64,000 nt of DNA, taken from contig KN832885.1 of the NCBI GenBank assembly GCA_000827325.1, forward strand, positions 930,001 through 994,000, read 5' to 3'. This stretch comes from Oidiodendron maius Zn. Its lineage: Eukaryota; Ascomycota; Leotiomycetes; Myxotrichaceae. The notes under the pieces are model-generated. The model searched no databases. It had not been told where the DNA came from and saw only the letters and a program-made list of their open reading frames with translations. The position numbers and the translations under genes are program-made. Positions 4,633 through 60,721 of the stretch are shown one piece after another. Within the stretch, counting starts at the first letter, position 1, and the number at the start of each line of letters is the position of its first letter.

Positions 4633-6245
<1,613 letters not shown>

Positions 6246-32547: not shown

Positions 32548-33423
32548 TATGGTAGCTTTCAAATCCCGATGCAGCTGTAGTTACTGAAGCAGGGGCCAAA
32601 AGAGAACAGGCTAAGAGATATTAGTGCAAGAATTCTGGGTACCTCCGTTTCACCCTCAGATGTAGCCTGCTGACAACTGCAGCCGGTAGAAGCAGGAGAT
32701 GAAAGACGTTGCTTTTAGATTGCAGTCGCCTAGATCATGATCATGTATGCGACGGAGTTAAGGGTGGCAGTGGAGACTAGCGTATGCAGTCTGCTTACAG
32801 TACTGACCTCATAGCTCTGAAGCTCGCCACGCTTAAAGTACACTTAACTGACTGGCCCACGTTCTGCTCCCGGGACTGCTGCGTCGGTCGGGTACTAGTT
32901 ATGTATCTTGCTTACAGGTGCATTAGTGCGGTGCTTTCGCACTACGTTTGAATCTTACAGATCGCTGTCTGCTGGCCGCCAGCTAATGTTATATAGCACA
33001 GAGGAAGAAATTCGGAATAGTAGTCATTAACGTGGTAGCTCTGTAGGATGTAATGCTTCTGAGTATACGTTTAGATATACAGCTATGCGCGAAATCGGTG
33101 TCCGGTGCTTCAAATTCTCAAGAAACAGACCTCGGGTAATAACGGATTGTCTTTTTGCACTGGGGGACCCAAGCGCATAAGTCACGTTATACTTAGGATC
33201 AAGATTCAGGATTCGGAGGATTCAACTGAATCAGTAAGAGGTCTAAAGGTACTTTTTTCTTATGTATCTAAGCTCCGTAGTTGCTCCCAATAGACTAAAT
33301 TTTCACTTGGATATTCGACTACGACCTGAGTTTTTAATTGTACGCATACAATCATGAGTGAAACCTGTGTCTTGCTCTTCAAACACTAACAAATAAAATT
33401 TTCGCTATGAAAGTGATATTAAC
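32548..33423. other. Intergenic, no supported gene
   Basis: Presumed promoter of the bZIP gene at the left. The rest holds only short frames without recognisable domains. Confidence 0.55.
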
Positions 33424-34896
33424 TCATTCGGCAGCTTGAGCAGGGTCTGCGGCATGAGAAGATCCAGGTCCCGGAGAAACATGATTGTCTCTCTTCCAGA
33501 AAACCCTGGAATACTTGAACAGGACTCGTAATTCAGCATCTTGTATCACGGCGAGCCGTATATTTTCTGGGACAATCCTGCTCAGGTGGATATACGTCTG
33601 TACCAGCTCCAAGACCTCTGAAAGCAGATATGCGATACATGCTCTGATTCCAGCAATAAATTTATCGTCCCTAACCAAACTATTGTCTTCGCACCGTGGG
33701 GTGAGAAAGCTCTTAATCTTACTCTCTACTGCACGAGTGTCATAGCCAGTAATCGGTTCCGAATGAGGGTTCATCATGCATGAATACATGCAAGTATCCA
33801 AAGCGTCGCTATAGGAACGATTGGGAAACAAAGAAGTGGCAAATGCAAGAACCGTATCGTAGGAGGAGGAGGCAGGTGCGATAAAGTGCTCCAAGTAGCT
33901 CATGATCATCTCATTTAGATAGGTATGACACAGTTCCTTCAATGGTTCGGCAAATTCATGGGCTTTAACCCCGGGCCTGGTTCGTATAGCATCAAAGTCC
34001 GTGCTTTTAAGGAGATGCTCATGACTGTCATATGGTCCCAGGTATTCGGATTCTGCAGCAAGCTGTGATGATAAGTTATACATTTTTATCTGCCGTTCCA
34101 ACATATCGAAGCCCTCAAACTTGCAACCTTCGCGCAAGCGGCGCTGAAACCATTCTTCATCGGTTTCGTCCGGGCGTAGCGTCTGGTCCAGTCCAACAAA
34201 GGTTGTGCGCGTGAAATAGGTGTGCGTCGTAAAGAATATGAATGATCTCGCAGCTGTACGGGCCTCGTCGAACCCAAAACGACCAAACATATATTCACCA
34301 CCAGGAATGAACATCCAGATTCCACTAGGCCGATTGTCTATTTCGTGTGGGATCTTCTTCTCTTTCCACCGTAGTACTTCCTTTTTCGCGGTTCCGAAAT
34401 CCACGAGCCCAAGGCCTGCACCAAACACCGCCGTAGTTGAAGTGTCAACATCGGCCTCATTACCGAAACCAATTTCTTCCTTTCCGCGTTTATCGTAATA
34501 CCCCCAATCGTATCGATTAATGACAAGCACAGCTTCCGCGGCCGTTGTCGTGTCGTTAAATTGACTTCCGTTATCACGTTCATAGGGAGAGCCAGACACG
34601 CGGAGAATCTTGCCGATTTCTACTTCTGGGTCGACATCAGAATGAGACACGAACCATGCGCAGTGGCGATTCGTGCCTTTCTCGACAAGCTGGAAAGTGT
34701 TCCATGTTCCATTCTGGGCGGGAACATTGTATTCAAGGATTTGAGCCACAACTGTTCCGCCGGCATGCCTGTCAACAGCGCTGGGAAATTCTTGGATTAG
34801 GCTTGAGGCGCCATGCCAGATGTTATGAAGATCGCCGTAGCAGAGACATCCAGATGTGACGGTGAATTGAGAATGAACTTGCGGTTTGGTCGTCAT
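33424..34896 (-). CDS. Unrecognised protein with a histone H2A-like C-terminus
   Basis: Single-exon frame; the first ATG (34896, MTTKPQVHSQ) gives 490 residues. Residues about 30-130 are beta-rich and could form an OB-like fold (TVVAQILEYNV, EIGKILRVSGSPYERDNG), but this is weak. A central region of about 250 residues is unrecognised (GIWMFIPGGEYMFGRFGFDEART, EFAEPLKELCHTYLNEMI). Residues about 416-468 match the histone-fold core of H2A: YLLSEVLELV then, after a shortened loop, RIVPENIRLAVIQDAELRVLF, compared with YL.AE.LEL...RI.PRH.QLAI.ND.EL..LL in H2A. A Pro/Ala/Ser tail ends the protein. No gene beside it suggests a role. The histone link rests on pattern reading and needs a profile search. 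Confidence 0.75.
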   Translation of the reverse strand: MTTKPQVHSQFTVTSGCLCYGDLHNIWHGASSLIQEFPSAVDRHAGGTVVAQILEYNVPAQNGTWNTFQLVEKGTNRHCAWFVSHSDVDPEVEIGKILRVSGSPYERDNGSQFNDTTTAAEAVLVINRYDWGYYDKRGKEEIGFGNEADVDTSTTAVFGAGLGLVDFGTAKKEVLRWKEKKIPHEIDNRPSGIWMFIPGGEYMFGRFGFDEARTAARSFIFFTTHTYFTRTTFVGLDQTLRPDETDEEWFQRRLREGCKFEGFDMLERQIKMYNLSSQLAAESEYLGPYDSHEHLLKSTDFDAIRTRPGVKAHEFAEPLKELCHTYLNEMIMSYLEHFIAPASSSYDTVLAFATSLFPNRSYSDALDTCMYSCMMNPHSEPITGYDTRAVESKIKSFLTPRCEDNSLVRDDKFIAGIRACIAYLLSEVLELVQTYIHLSRIVPENIRLAVIQDAELRVLFKYSRVFWKRDNHVSPGPGSSHAADPAQAAE

Positions 34897-35793
34897 TGCC
34901 AAAAGAGTATTGGAATAGTTGATGGAAGCCAAGGAATATTTACGTAGACTGTTTGTGTTGAGACATGAGGCGTGATGTGCGCAGGCGTTAAGGCGCGTTT
35001 TAAGATTCCATGTGCCTGCTATTCCGCTCCGGCGGGGAGGATTTTGTCGAGCGCTACCATGTTACAAATGTAAGGCAGCAGAGGGCAGCCTACTAGGCAC
35101 TACAGGTGCCTAGTATTATAGGGGCTTTACTACTTAGAGTGTGACTCTAAGGGCCGCCGATCAGCGCTGCCTAGAGGAGATTTAAGTTAACCTCGGTAAC
35201 CCTTAGCTATTTAGTCGAAATACTGTACTGCATCTATTGTATTGAACCCTTTATATTATGTTGCTGGCTGAACTCTGCAACAGCCAGCCACTTGATACGA
35301 TATATTCCCAAGCTTAACCTATTTTCAGCCGTCTAATAGTAAAATACCTAATTAAGAGCTTTCCGATTTTATTATCTCGTGGTTCTCGTATTCTCGGACT
35401 AAAGATGTCTGTGCGATAGTTTACTAATCCCTAGATAACCGCGCAACTTGTATAACACTCACGCTTTTCTTTTGCTGCAATATCTATTATATGGCAGATA
35501 ATGAAGGATACACGTACTCATTAGCCCGCTAGGTCTCAGATCTTATAATAAGCCATACAACCTCACTTTCAGAAGCTACAAGCTACTGAATTTTGGGCCT
35601 TAGGACATGCATACTCGGCACAACACTACACTCAACATCATACTAATACGCGACTGGTGGATGGTTCCAAATTCCGGGGTTTACATCCGCGAGAGTAGGT
35701 TTTCGGATATCAAGTAGGTGTACTAGATAATTGAACTCACCCAGAAGTGTATTCAAGCTAAATTCCTTCATCACCATCCTACTATATATAGTT
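34897..35793. other. Intergenic with a cluster of hairpins
   Basis: No coding region supported. AT-rich after 35150. Three perfect short inverted repeats lie within 200 bp (listed separately), which suggests a transposon or LTR remnant. Confidence 0.5.
35091..35288. repeat. Three clustered perfect inverted repeats
   Basis: TACTAGGCAC/GTGCCTAGTA at 35091-35115 (5-bp loop), CTTAGAGT/ACTCTAAG at 35133-35151 (3-bp loop), and GCTGGCTG/CAGCCAGC at 35263-35288 (10-bp loop). No gene overlaps them. Confidence 0.8.
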
Positions 35794-55642: not shown

Positions 55643-58093
55643 ATGGATATCAGAAACGCTCAACCCTTTGAGTACGAACCTCTCAAATCTAGTGAATCTA
55701 TTCGCCTCCTTATCCTCCATCCTGGAATTGCGGAGTCTCCTATCCACATCAGCTTGATAGAAACTACCCTTTCAGAATGTAGAGCAGATATATACGAGCA
55801 GTATACTGCACTATCATATGTTTGGGGGTCCCGTGCTCCCACAACGACAATCTTTGTCAACGGGCAGAGCCTTGAAATCGCACTCAATTTGTCAGCTGCT
55901 TTGCGCCACCTTCGAGATGGGAAGTATTCTCTCCGGCTCTGGGCTGATGCCATTTGTATCGATCAAAATAATGTTATAGAACGCAGTGAACAAGTCACCT
56001 TGATGGAGGAGATCTACAGTCTCGCTATGCAGACTATTGTTTATCTTGGAGAATCGAACGAGGAGATCGAGAGGATATTCAATGACATGCAAAACTCTCC
56101 ACGAAGGTTCCGGAGAGTGGAGAGTCAGGGGAGGGCTGCTTTTATTAACAAAGTTGATGTAAACGAAATGGAGAGCGATGGCGAAGAATGGATTGGTTGG
56201 GAGCTATCAAGTTCGTCCGATGATACCGACTACCATGCCATGAGTGAAGGAAGAGTTACGCGTGATATGGTGGAGTCAGCGTTTGGCGATTGGAACCCGC
56301 CATTTCTGTCTGAAGCTGCCAACGAATCTGCTACAAGTGAGGGAGAAAGCGAGAGCAGTATAGAAGAGTCGACTAGCGGGGTCCTGCCAGCTATTGGTAT
56401 TCCTAAAAGAGTTCTTGATCTCGACGATACAAGATTTATAGACACTGCTAGTAGCAAGTCATCGAGCATTTCGAATGAAGATGCGGAACGCGATTTGTCG
56501 CAACTTTTGCAGCGAACAAAGGATATACAGCAAGTTATAACTACACAACTTCTCACACGTCCTTGGTTCCTACGTGTATGGGTCTTTCAGGAGCTGGTCT
56601 TGTCAAAATCGGTGTGGATTCAATGTGGCCGGTCTCGTGTCAAGTGGGAAGACTTTTGCGAACTGATGCTTTCTGCTGAAGTGGAAGCAGACGCCACTAC
56701 ATCGGACCCGAGAACTATGATTTATGATTTGAAAAGTGCCCAAGAAGGGAATTCAGGGTTGCTACTATTGTCTCGAATGGACAGGCCCAGAAAGATTTGG
56801 CAAGAAAGGCTTCTATTTCCTAAGCACCCTCAACCGTTGGTTGATATTCTGTTAGCTAGACGCGGTTCTAAGGCGACTGATCCTCGAGATATGATCTACG
56901 GCCATCTCGGTATCGCTGGAATATACAACTCCAAGAATGGCCCATGGAAGTCGGCTGACCTCCCAAGTGTTGATTATCGGAAGTCTATCAATGAAGTCTT
57001 CGAGGATGCTACCCGTTTCATTATAACGTCATCTCAAAGCCTTGATGTCCTACTTCATGTTGAGACCCGCATCCCATCCTCTCAACAACGGCGTCTTCCA
57101 TCTTGGGTACCAGATTGGTATTTGGATTCTTCCCACTACCTTGCTCCACTCCCAACGCCTCATGTCGAGCTGCCACAGAGCCGAGGACCTCCGAACCGCA
57201 GTGCAGGCGCCGCTCCCCGCTTCAATAGCGGTATGGATACTCCTGAAATGCCTCTTATGGAAATAGAAAGCAAGGTTTTATTCTATTCGCACCCATCAAC
57301 AATTGCCTTCAAAGCCTTACGAAGGGCGAAAGTTGAAACCGTCAGCCCCATTATTGCATCCTATTATCCCGAGTTAGATTTTGAGGATGAATTTCTGGGC
57401 TTAGCGGATGAGAAATTTGATGATTATTCTTCTTATGGCCATCGCCCAGAACTCATTTTCTCCAGTCGTTCGCGGGAAGTATCGTACCAAAAGCTCTACC
57501 GCTGGTGGCAGGCGGAACTTGGGCACGTAAATTTACCTTCTTATTCTTCTGAGCGTTCAGATTGGAAAGAATACTGGCATTTTTGGGACGACTTTCACCG
57601 AATTTATTACCATATAAATAAGGCCGGCACATGTAATCGCGATGCTTGCAAACCAGATCATCGGTGGTCCCGACCCTACCCATCGAGTCAGGAATTTCAC
57701 AGCATTGAGGAAGCCTTGATGCGCCATCCCTTCAAGCATTATGCTACTAAGCCTCTTAGTGGCCGGAGGGTCGCTAAATTTCAAGAGGGCTATTATGGAA
57801 TTGTCCCTGCAACGACCACGAAGGGAGATTTTATTTATTGTACCTCTAAGGCTGGCTATGGCCCAACAATTGTGCTATCGCCTCTGTCAAGCCAAAGTTC
57901 TCTTGTAATAAGTGAGTTCCTAGAACTACCGGAAAATCCTAATCGCCGTTACTTTAAGCTCAAAGGACACGCCTGGATAGAGAGTCCAAAGAGCCCAAAG
58001 CCCAGTAGGGGGGTTAGGGCTAGAGACAAATACCACACCACAAGGATTTGGCCACGGGCCAACCCTGATTTTCACCCTGTTTTTATATTATAA
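55643..58093 (+). CDS. HET-domain protein with acidic insert
   Basis: An intronless 816-residue protein with a heterokaryon-incompatibility (HET) domain. Conserved blocks: YTALSYVWGS (about 54), LRLWADAICIDQNN (about 98) followed by QVTLMEEIYSLAMQTIVYLGE, and RPWFLRVWVFQELVL (about 308). Between the second and third blocks lies a Ser/Glu/Asp-rich insertion of about 150 residues, unusual in size. The C-terminal half has ATDPRDMIYGHLGIAG and LPSWVPDW, as in large HET proteins, and ends in a basic tail. HET domains trigger cell death when partners mismatch in fused hyphae. A second HET gene lies 1.4 kb downstream in the same orientation. Confidence 0.95.
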   Translation: MDIRNAQPFEYEPLKSSESIRLLILHPGIAESPIHISLIETTLSECRADIYEQYTALSYVWGSRAPTTTIFVNGQSLEIALNLSAALRHLRDGKYSLRLWADAICIDQNNVIERSEQVTLMEEIYSLAMQTIVYLGESNEEIERIFNDMQNSPRRFRRVESQGRAAFINKVDVNEMESDGEEWIGWELSSSSDDTDYHAMSEGRVTRDMVESAFGDWNPPFLSEAANESATSEGESESSIEESTSGVLPAIGIPKRVLDLDDTRFIDTASSKSSSISNEDAERDLSQLLQRTKDIQQVITTQLLTRPWFLRVWVFQELVLSKSVWIQCGRSRVKWEDFCELMLSAEVEADATTSDPRTMIYDLKSAQEGNSGLLLLSRMDRPRKIWQERLLFPKHPQPLVDILLARRGSKATDPRDMIYGHLGIAGIYNSKNGPWKSADLPSVDYRKSINEVFEDATRFIITSSQSLDVLLHVETRIPSSQQRRLPSWVPDWYLDSSHYLAPLPTPHVELPQSRGPPNRSAGAAPRFNSGMDTPEMPLMEIESKVLFYSHPSTIAFKALRRAKVETVSPIIASYYPELDFEDEFLGLADEKFDDYSSYGHRPELIFSSRSREVSYQKLYRWWQAELGHVNLPSYSSERSDWKEYWHFWDDFHRIYYHINKAGTCNRDACKPDHRWSRPYPSSQEFHSIEEALMRHPFKHYATKPLSGRRVAKFQEGYYGIVPATTTKGDFIYCTSKAGYGPTIVLSPLSSQSSLVISEFLELPENPNRRYFKLKGHAWIESPKSPKPSRGVRARDKYHTTRIWPRANPDFHPVFIL

Positions 58094-59494: not shown

Positions 59495-60721
59495 ATGTCT
59501 TCTAACGAACCTATCTACCAACCTCTGTCGTTTGAAGCGGAAGAGATTCGCCGGCTCCAACTCGACCGAGACCATGCTGGCAGCTCTATTATATGCAGCC
59601 TCAAGACTTTCAAGTTGGCCGAGACGCCTCCATACCAAGCTCTATCCTACTATTGGGGCGATTCCAAAATTCGACGACCAATCAAATTGAATGGACAACC
59701 TTTTCAGGTCACAGTCAACCTATTCTTGTGTCTCGAGAGACTGAACCTTCGGGACGATTATGAATGGTTATGGATCGACGCTCTTTGTATCGACCAACAG
59801 AATATAAAAGAGAAGGAATATCAAGTTCCGCTGATGGAGAAAATCTACCGTTTGACTCAAAGAGTTATCATATGGCTGGGGAGTGCTGCCGACAACAGCG
59901 GTCTCGCTATAGAGTTAATCCATCGCTGGGGTTATGGTATTAAAAGGGGAATAGCAAACGATCCCAATTTCGTTAATAGCCAACTTAAATCCGCTTTGCT
60001 ATATTTTAAAGATCCGTTTGATGAAGCTAGCTGGAAGGCGTTTTGGAGATTTCTGGGCAGGGAATACTGGGCAAGAGTTTGGACGCTTCAGGAAGTGGTT
60101 CTTGCGAATTCCTGGATCGTTATCTGCGGCGACAGCGAAGTCGACTTCCAACACTTCCACGCTCTGTTCATGATTGAAACACAATTCAACGGACTCAACA
60201 CAGATGGGTTTGTTCTTGCCCAAGTCCTGGCTCGCTCAGTCTATGTTTGGCTTACTGCTGGTACCTATGATAATTTATTCGATCCTTATTGGATCGAAAA
60301 TATCACTGCCCGCGTATCATTACTAACTGGGAAAATATCCGCCCAAAGAGAAGGGCTCATTTACCAGCCGGATTTGCTTCATGTCATTAACCTATGCCGA
60401 ACACTGAAGGCGAGCAACCCAAGGGACCATATTTACGGTGTCCTTGGCCTCTTGAACTCTCAGCAGTTTCCTATCAAGCCTGATTATAACCTTGGCGTTG
60501 CCGAGATCTATGCCAACTTTACAATTGAGCTTGCCCAAAAACTGAAAAGTCTGGCTGTTCTTCAGTTATCGGGTATAGGTATGGACTTGCAACAGACCGT
60601 ATCAATGTCCGGACCGTCATGGGTCCCCGACTACAGCAAGAGAGCTGGAGTTCACAACCTGGAATACAATCCACTCACCAAGTTTAAGCTAAACATCTCC
60701 TTAGTCACAATGACATTGTGA
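59495..60721 (+). CDS. HET-domain protein, short
   Basis: An intronless 408-residue protein. HET blocks: YQALSYYWGD (about 47), WLWIDALCIDQQNIKEKEYQ (about 89), QRVIIWLG, and REYWARVWTLQEVVLANSW (about 186). NPRDHIYGVLGL and GPSWVPDYS follow. It ends soon after the WVPDY block, so it lacks the variable C-terminal region of longer HET proteins such as its neighbour at 55643. Either the gene is naturally compact or a stop has shortened it; about 30 weakly conserved residues precede the end. It is probably part of the same incompatibility-type cluster. Confidence 0.92.
   Translation: MSSNEPIYQPLSFEAEEIRRLQLDRDHAGSSIICSLKTFKLAETPPYQALSYYWGDSKIRRPIKLNGQPFQVTVNLFLCLERLNLRDDYEWLWIDALCIDQQNIKEKEYQVPLMEKIYRLTQRVIIWLGSAADNSGLAIELIHRWGYGIKRGIANDPNFVNSQLKSALLYFKDPFDEASWKAFWRFLGREYWARVWTLQEVVLANSWIVICGDSEVDFQHFHALFMIETQFNGLNTDGFVLAQVLARSVYVWLTAGTYDNLFDPYWIENITARVSLLTGKISAQREGLIYQPDLLHVINLCRTLKASNPRDHIYGVLGLLNSQQFPIKPDYNLGVAEIYANFTIELAQKLKSLAVLQLSGIGMDLQQTVSMSGPSWVPDYSKRAGVHNLEYNPLTKFKLNISLVTMTL

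Follow-up and report, generated by a model that had tools for sequence, protein, structure and literature searches.

A fungal gene family that very probably carries an H2A-type histone fold at the C-terminus of a larger protein

The gene and its surroundings

The window, by which is meant the whole 64,000-nucleotide stretch of Oidiodendron maius DNA that was analysed, carries on its reverse strand a gene, P0001, whose product can be divided into a large N-terminal region, a middle region, a domain that very likely has an H2A-type histone fold, and a short variable tail (Table 1). With 490 aa and a net charge of -18 the protein is neither small nor basic, and it has no basic N-terminal tail, in line with an earlier note on this DNA. 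Ten other ORFs of the window were scanned and 9 of them match Pfam, including SDR, DUF3425, CFEM, sugar transporter, fungal transcription-factor, GH92 and, twice, heterokaryon-incompatibility (HET) domains, a set of families that suggests a filamentous ascomycete. The two HET ORFs lie close together, at window 55643-58093 and 59495-60721.

Table 1 Features of the P0001 gene and copies of a short element found near the family (window positions unless another contig is named)
Feature	Position	Strand	Basis or remark
P0001, family member, 490-aa single-exon coding sequence	33424..34896	-	ATG at 34896, stop at 33424; homologous ORFs in genome; codon conservation
N-terminal region, residues 1-305	33982..34896	-	Best-conserved part; libraries searched give no believable relative
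Middle region, residues 306-385; possible (unestablished) H2B-like partner fold	33742..33981	-	Profile and hhalign not significant; template scans suggestive in 2 of 3 members; gapped alignment mixed
Very likely H2A-type histone-fold domain, residues 386-468	33493..33741	-	PDB searches, hhalign, block alignment
Putative alpha-1 equivalent, residues 392-401	33694..33723	-	H2A.Z-type rows from profile position 14; block alignment
Putative equivalent of part of the central alpha-2 helix, residues 417-434, IRACIAYLLSEVLELVQT	33595..33648	-	PDB searches, block alignment
Putative loop 2 end and alpha-3 equivalent, residues 439-460, SRIVPENIRLAVIQDAELRVLF	33517..33582	-	PDB searches, block alignment, template shuffles
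Variable C-terminal tail, residues 469-490	33427..33492	-	Unconserved across three members
RAAGAGCARGACNNNNNTTTCNCNCATNNNTGT copy	33348-33380	-	Just after the P0001 gene
RAAGAGCARGACNNNNNTTTCNCNCATNNNTGT copy	C4:158699-158731		Just after the C4 family copy
RAAGAGCARGACNNNNNTTTCNCNCATNNNTGT copy	C1:600794-600826		Upstream of the C1 family copy
RAAGAGCARGACNNNNNTTTCNCNCATNNNTGT copy	C24:337430-337462		tblastn: weak family matches only, best E 0.007

A search of the genome (45.9 Mb in 58 contigs) places P0001 in a small family. An intact paralogue of 480 aa, referred to below as C1, lies at C1:601319-602758 and is about 48% identical to P0001, and a further copy, C4, at C4:158795-160362, is 40% identical over the aligned part and has an early change of reading frame. 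A short family fragment with stops is found on C10. The same genome also carries genes for H2A, H2A.Z and H2B. Among viral contigs and prokaryote genome contigs, pattern searches for relatives gave 3, 76 and 151 matches, none of which was confirmed. Comparison of P0001 with C1 gives identities at codon positions 1, 2 and 3 of 0.69, 0.70 and 0.36 over residues 1-300, of 0.51, 0.63 and 0.41 over residues 306-385, and of 0.60, 0.60 and 0.47 over residues 386-468. Positions 1 and 2 exceed position 3 in 9/9 comparisons, the histone part included, and since this holds in every segment all three parts of the protein are under constraint at the protein level.

The N-terminal region (residues 1-305) has the highest identity of all parts to the two paralogues, 54% and 47%, and nothing believable was found for it in Pfam, NCBIfam, PADLOC, PHROGs or the PDB. 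Its sole PDB match, mL46 (E 0.53), was taken as chance, as were TcdB_toxin_midN for P0001 (E 0.0067; 16.2 bits, below the cut-off of 24.8, and not listed for the two paralogues), DUF4614 for C4 (E 0.26) and PHROG 4524 (E 0.25, in 1 of 3 members).

Various repeats are found around the family genes. The short element RAAGAGCARGACNNNNNTTTCNCNCATNNNTGT has four copies in the genome, with a control reading of 0, and near window 33078-33125 the element recurs in a more diverged form. The idea that this conserved 3' element marks a second exon was rejected: no consistent splice sites could be found by eye, and one copy of the element sits where tblastn shows no clear family gene. Upstream of P0001, at about window 35060-35282, there is a dispersed repeat with at least 33 other matches in the genome, one of them upstream of the C1 paralogue (C1:600843-600955). 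The C4 copy is flanked by inverted copies, 93% identical, of an abundant repeat some 260 bp long (L010:1533-1788 and 5017-5271, on C4) that has at least 45 genome matches, itself included; as a guess, these flanking copies might be solo LTRs. Carriage of the gene by a dedicated transposon was also considered and set aside, since the repeats beside C4 and upstream of P0001 are dispersed genome-wide and so are no mark of a dedicated element. A stretch upstream of the intact C1 gene (L009:1709-1828) aligns over 122 bases with the end of the C4 copy and its 3' flank, at 73% identity; it may be what is left of a further copy, or a repeat common to both places. Finally, at C14:1151586-1153019 there are AT-rich, partly stop-bearing stretches resembling histone H3, which recall the histone H3 transduplication described in Pyrenophora (PMC3538342).

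Relationship to histone H2A

The earlier note had proposed an H2A-like C-terminus in this 490-aa ORF. The coordinates are right, the stretch at residues 417-460 is present, and searches with phmmer of 177,635 distinct PDB sequences (E<=10) bear the proposal out. The last 78 aa of P0001 match 210 PDB sequences, the best 60 of which, from E 0.043 upwards, are without exception H2A, H2A.Z or fusions of H2B to H2A(.Z), and the same residues reversed, used as a control, match 0. Full-length P0001 matches 110 sequences, the best 60 being all H2A-type (best E 0.53), and with full-length C1 it is again H2A that ranks first (E 0.095; best 60 of 184 matches). The C-terminal part of C4, used alone, finds no H2A in the PDB, its one match being BirA at E 1. 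A profile built from the three family sequences, all of which come from one genome, gives a best E of 3.5e-6 over the full length and of 1.2e-6 for the C-terminal part, with H2A-type chains making up the best 60 of 210 and of 211 matches, respectively. Three H2A.Z-type rows of the C-terminal profile search start at profile position 14, such that the match spans alpha-1 and extends further back than the earlier note had described. An H2A-specific sequence covering alpha-1, alpha-2 and alpha-3 is thus found at the level of the profile, one of the three members failing on its own.

Alignment of profiles with hhalign gives the same picture. The C-terminal alignment of the family matches H2A with a probability of 95 and an E of 2.2e-8, and the second histone fold of Son of Sevenless (SOS) with an E of 1.3e-6, with 0/60 column shuffles as high in either case; the values for the other histones are 0.018 (H3), 0.22 (H2B) and 0.4 (H4). 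When H2A templates were shuffled, 0/3000 scored as high anywhere in P0001. The Pfam Histone model (PF00125) is not listed for P0001, C1 or C4 at E<=10, and the 18 PF00125 matches listed across the genome include no family member. On these sequence comparisons the C-terminus of P0001 is very likely an H2A-type histone fold.

Residues kept and lost

What has been kept of H2A, and what has been given up? The question was addressed with a block alignment of 50 H2A positions, hand-set from the earlier alignments, against P0001, C1 and C4. The hydrophobic core is conserved, being kept at 22/24, 19/24 and 20/24 positions, respectively, with 0, 0 and 3 of 20,000 shuffles as good, and so the H2A-like residues pointed out previously are indeed maintained in the homologues, of which two paralogues were checked. 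Polar identities to H2A are found at 5/25, 6/25 and 3/25 positions, and the total matches amount to 17/50, 17/50 and 14/50 aligned positions. Within alpha-3, I78, A86, D90, L93 and L96 are identical in all three members.

Most of the positions that we take to contact DNA in H2A (R29, R32, R35, K36 and R77) have been lost. Only R29 is basic throughout (K/R/R); no member has a basic residue at R32 or R35, and one is kept at K36 in C1 only and at R77 in P0001 only. The acidic patch, presumed here to comprise positions 56/61/64/90/91/92, is identical at 4/6 in P0001, at 3/6 in C1 and at 1/6 in C4, the latter having one conservative change in addition. Between the alpha-2 and alpha-3 blocks there are 4 residues in P0001, 7 in C1 and 16 in C4, compared with 7 in H2A. 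The domain has a net charge of +2, -1 and +1 in the three members, against +5 for the H2A core of the same genome and -1 for SOS fold 2, and the members as aligned carry -18, -25 and -24 (C4 without its N-terminal part). Because most of these DNA-contact positions are not basic, the chromatin contact suggested by the earlier note looks less likely than was implied. Since most DNA-contact residues have gone while the H2A core is kept, the fold probably now serves protein contacts and no longer the packing of DNA.

The region before the H2A-type fold

If the fold is used for protein contacts, its partner could lie in the same chain. An ungapped scan of P0001 with a 39-mer from the first histone fold of SOS finds its best of 452 places at residues 320-358, with a score of 18 against 6 for the next, and in C4 the place equivalent to residue 320 ties for best of 412; the register is not seen in the ungapped scan of C1. 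As C1 has a one-residue gap there and no register, it was left out, and joint tests were made on P0001 and C4 only, against shuffled templates and natural ones (overlapping 39-mers from ten window ORFs). The SOS template, which was picked after the resemblance had been noticed, is matched by 6/3000 shuffled and 2/4314 natural templates, the alpha-2 of the genome's own H2B by 21/3000 and 29/4454, and human H2B by 99/3000 and 176/4454. When P0001 is taken by itself, the best score is at least equalled by 161/3000 (SOS), 1050/3000 (own H2B) and 2133/3000 (human H2B) shuffled templates. With templates from H2B alpha-3, the expected place is not the peak in P0001, C1 or C4.

Searched against the PDB, the profile for residues 306-385 brings up no H2B, and its match to CCM1 (E 0.56) was taken as chance. 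With hhalign the region gives an E of 0.18 with H2B and of 0.13 with SOS fold 1, both inside the range of the shuffles (10/60 and 8/60). These values are worse than that of the positive control, in which SOS fold 1 against H2B gives an E of 0.0045; SOS fold 2 against H2A gives 3.1e-9. Gapped alignments with the upstream part shuffled are as good in 17/300, 163/300 and 79/300 cases for SOS and in 135/300, 161/300 and 130/300 for an H2B-H2A template. The proline anchor of SOS falls on the family proline in P0001, is one residue off in C1 and is unaligned in C4, and that of H2B falls on the family proline in C1 and C4 and not in P0001. An H2B-like half at residues about 320-358, in two of the three members, is no more than hinted at by a weak register that several of these tests fail to support, and is to be regarded as a lead.

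Interpretation and alternatives

A reading to which we give roughly even weight is that this fungal gene family has turned the H2A fold into an interaction module, which may be part of an intramolecular pseudodimer like that of SOS. The comparisons show the kinship with H2A at profile level, the retained core, the loss of most presumed DNA contacts and the constraint on the protein; the fold in three dimensions, its partner and a role in regulation are inferred. In the intact members some 300 conserved N-terminal residues would be combined with a C-terminal H2A-type fold, retained for the packing of its hydrophobic helices rather than for wrapping DNA. The domain would most likely pair with a histone-fold-like partner, and the contact surface so formed would anchor the N-terminal part or regulate it; this partner may well be the region just upstream in the same chain, as in the SOS H domain. 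More tentatively, and with the balance somewhat against it, an H2B-like and an H2A-like fold together could form a double histone fold of non-nucleosomal type at the C-terminus, joined to a conserved N-terminal domain that would be new. The family would then be a fungal equivalent of the SOS H domain that arose independently, with the H2A-H2B dimer put to use for regulation or as a scaffold.

The partner could instead be supplied from outside. The H2A-type domain might pair with free cellular H2B or another histone-fold protein and so bring the N-terminal part to chromatin or a histone chaperone, in broadly the way that macroH2A does with its macrodomain. The retained hydrophobic positions of H2A are consistent with this, as are the four of six presumed acidic-patch positions and R77 in P0001, the presence of H2A, H2A.Z and H2B genes in the genome, and an upstream region that is not recognisably H2B-like by profile. 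It is nevertheless considered unlikely, given that no member is basic at R32 or R35 and one of three at K36, that loop 2 differs in length between members, and that the domain is near neutral in proteins that are acidic. A chance agreement is much harder to sustain. An amphipathic helical region could match the letters of H2A without common descent, and the weak E-values of single sequences (0.043 and 0.53, with 0.095 for C1) and the failure of C4 alone to find H2A would fit such convergence, but the best-listed matches are specific to H2A-type chains, the reversed sequence gives none, and the profile reaches 1.2e-6 with 0/60 shuffles as high, making it highly improbable. The least probable explanation is that of a decaying, functionless gene with an H2A fragment captured by duplication, in the manner of the transduplicated histone pieces of fungi. 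The frame change in C4, the stop-bearing fragment on C10 and the dispersed repeats adjoining three of the loci point in that direction; against it, two ORFs are intact (490 and 480 aa, about 48% identical), codon positions 1 and 2 are conserved over 3 in every segment, the histone part among them, and the 17, 17 and 14 of 50 positions that match H2A are fewer than a recent capture would leave.

Few histone folds are known to be used outside chromatin. If the reuse of the H2A fold as an interaction module is correct, a fungal family that keeps the H2A core without most of its DNA contacts would add another case, and one illustrating that a domain of this sort can escape the Pfam Histone model. 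Among the open-licence papers listed, no title or opening of an abstract names a fungal H2A-fold fusion of comparable kind, and Table 1 of PMC13088155 gives SPT3 as the only double histone fold for fungi. According to the same source, the double histone fold of SOS lacks the electrostatics for binding nucleic acids, and its roles are in autoinhibition and in contacts between proteins.

Comparison with known systems

The family shares with H2A and H2A.Z the order of alpha-1, alpha-2, loop 2 and alpha-3 and the hydrophobic core. It differs from them in the roughly 385 residues that precede the domain in P0001, in the missing basic tail, in the replacement of most presumed DNA contacts, in an incomplete acidic patch and in a loop 2 that is shorter in P0001 and longer in C4. 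Like macroH2A (PMC6189284), the family has an H2A fold fused to a large second domain, but the order of the domains is reversed and no macrodomain is matched in the family. With SPT3 the likeness would be that of two histone folds in one chain, the state proposed for the family; unlike SPT3, there is no Pfam SPT3 match and the best-listed PDB matches are H2A-type only. ABTB2/Cca3 double-histone-fold proteins, compared by description only, likewise have histone folds fused to other domains (PMC13088155), whereas the family has no ankyrin or BTB match.

Finally, SOS1 differs in that its H domain is N-terminal, whereas the H2A-like fold of P0001 is at the C-terminus; no DH, PH or RasGEF domain is matched in P0001 or the two paralogues at E<=10 in Pfam; and the family is fungal, while SOS is given for animals and Capsaspora (PMC13088155). 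What is common to P0001 and the SOS1 H domain (PDB 1q9c/3ksy) is a near-neutral H2A-like fold within a multidomain protein; an H2B-like half before it is possible in P0001 but not established.
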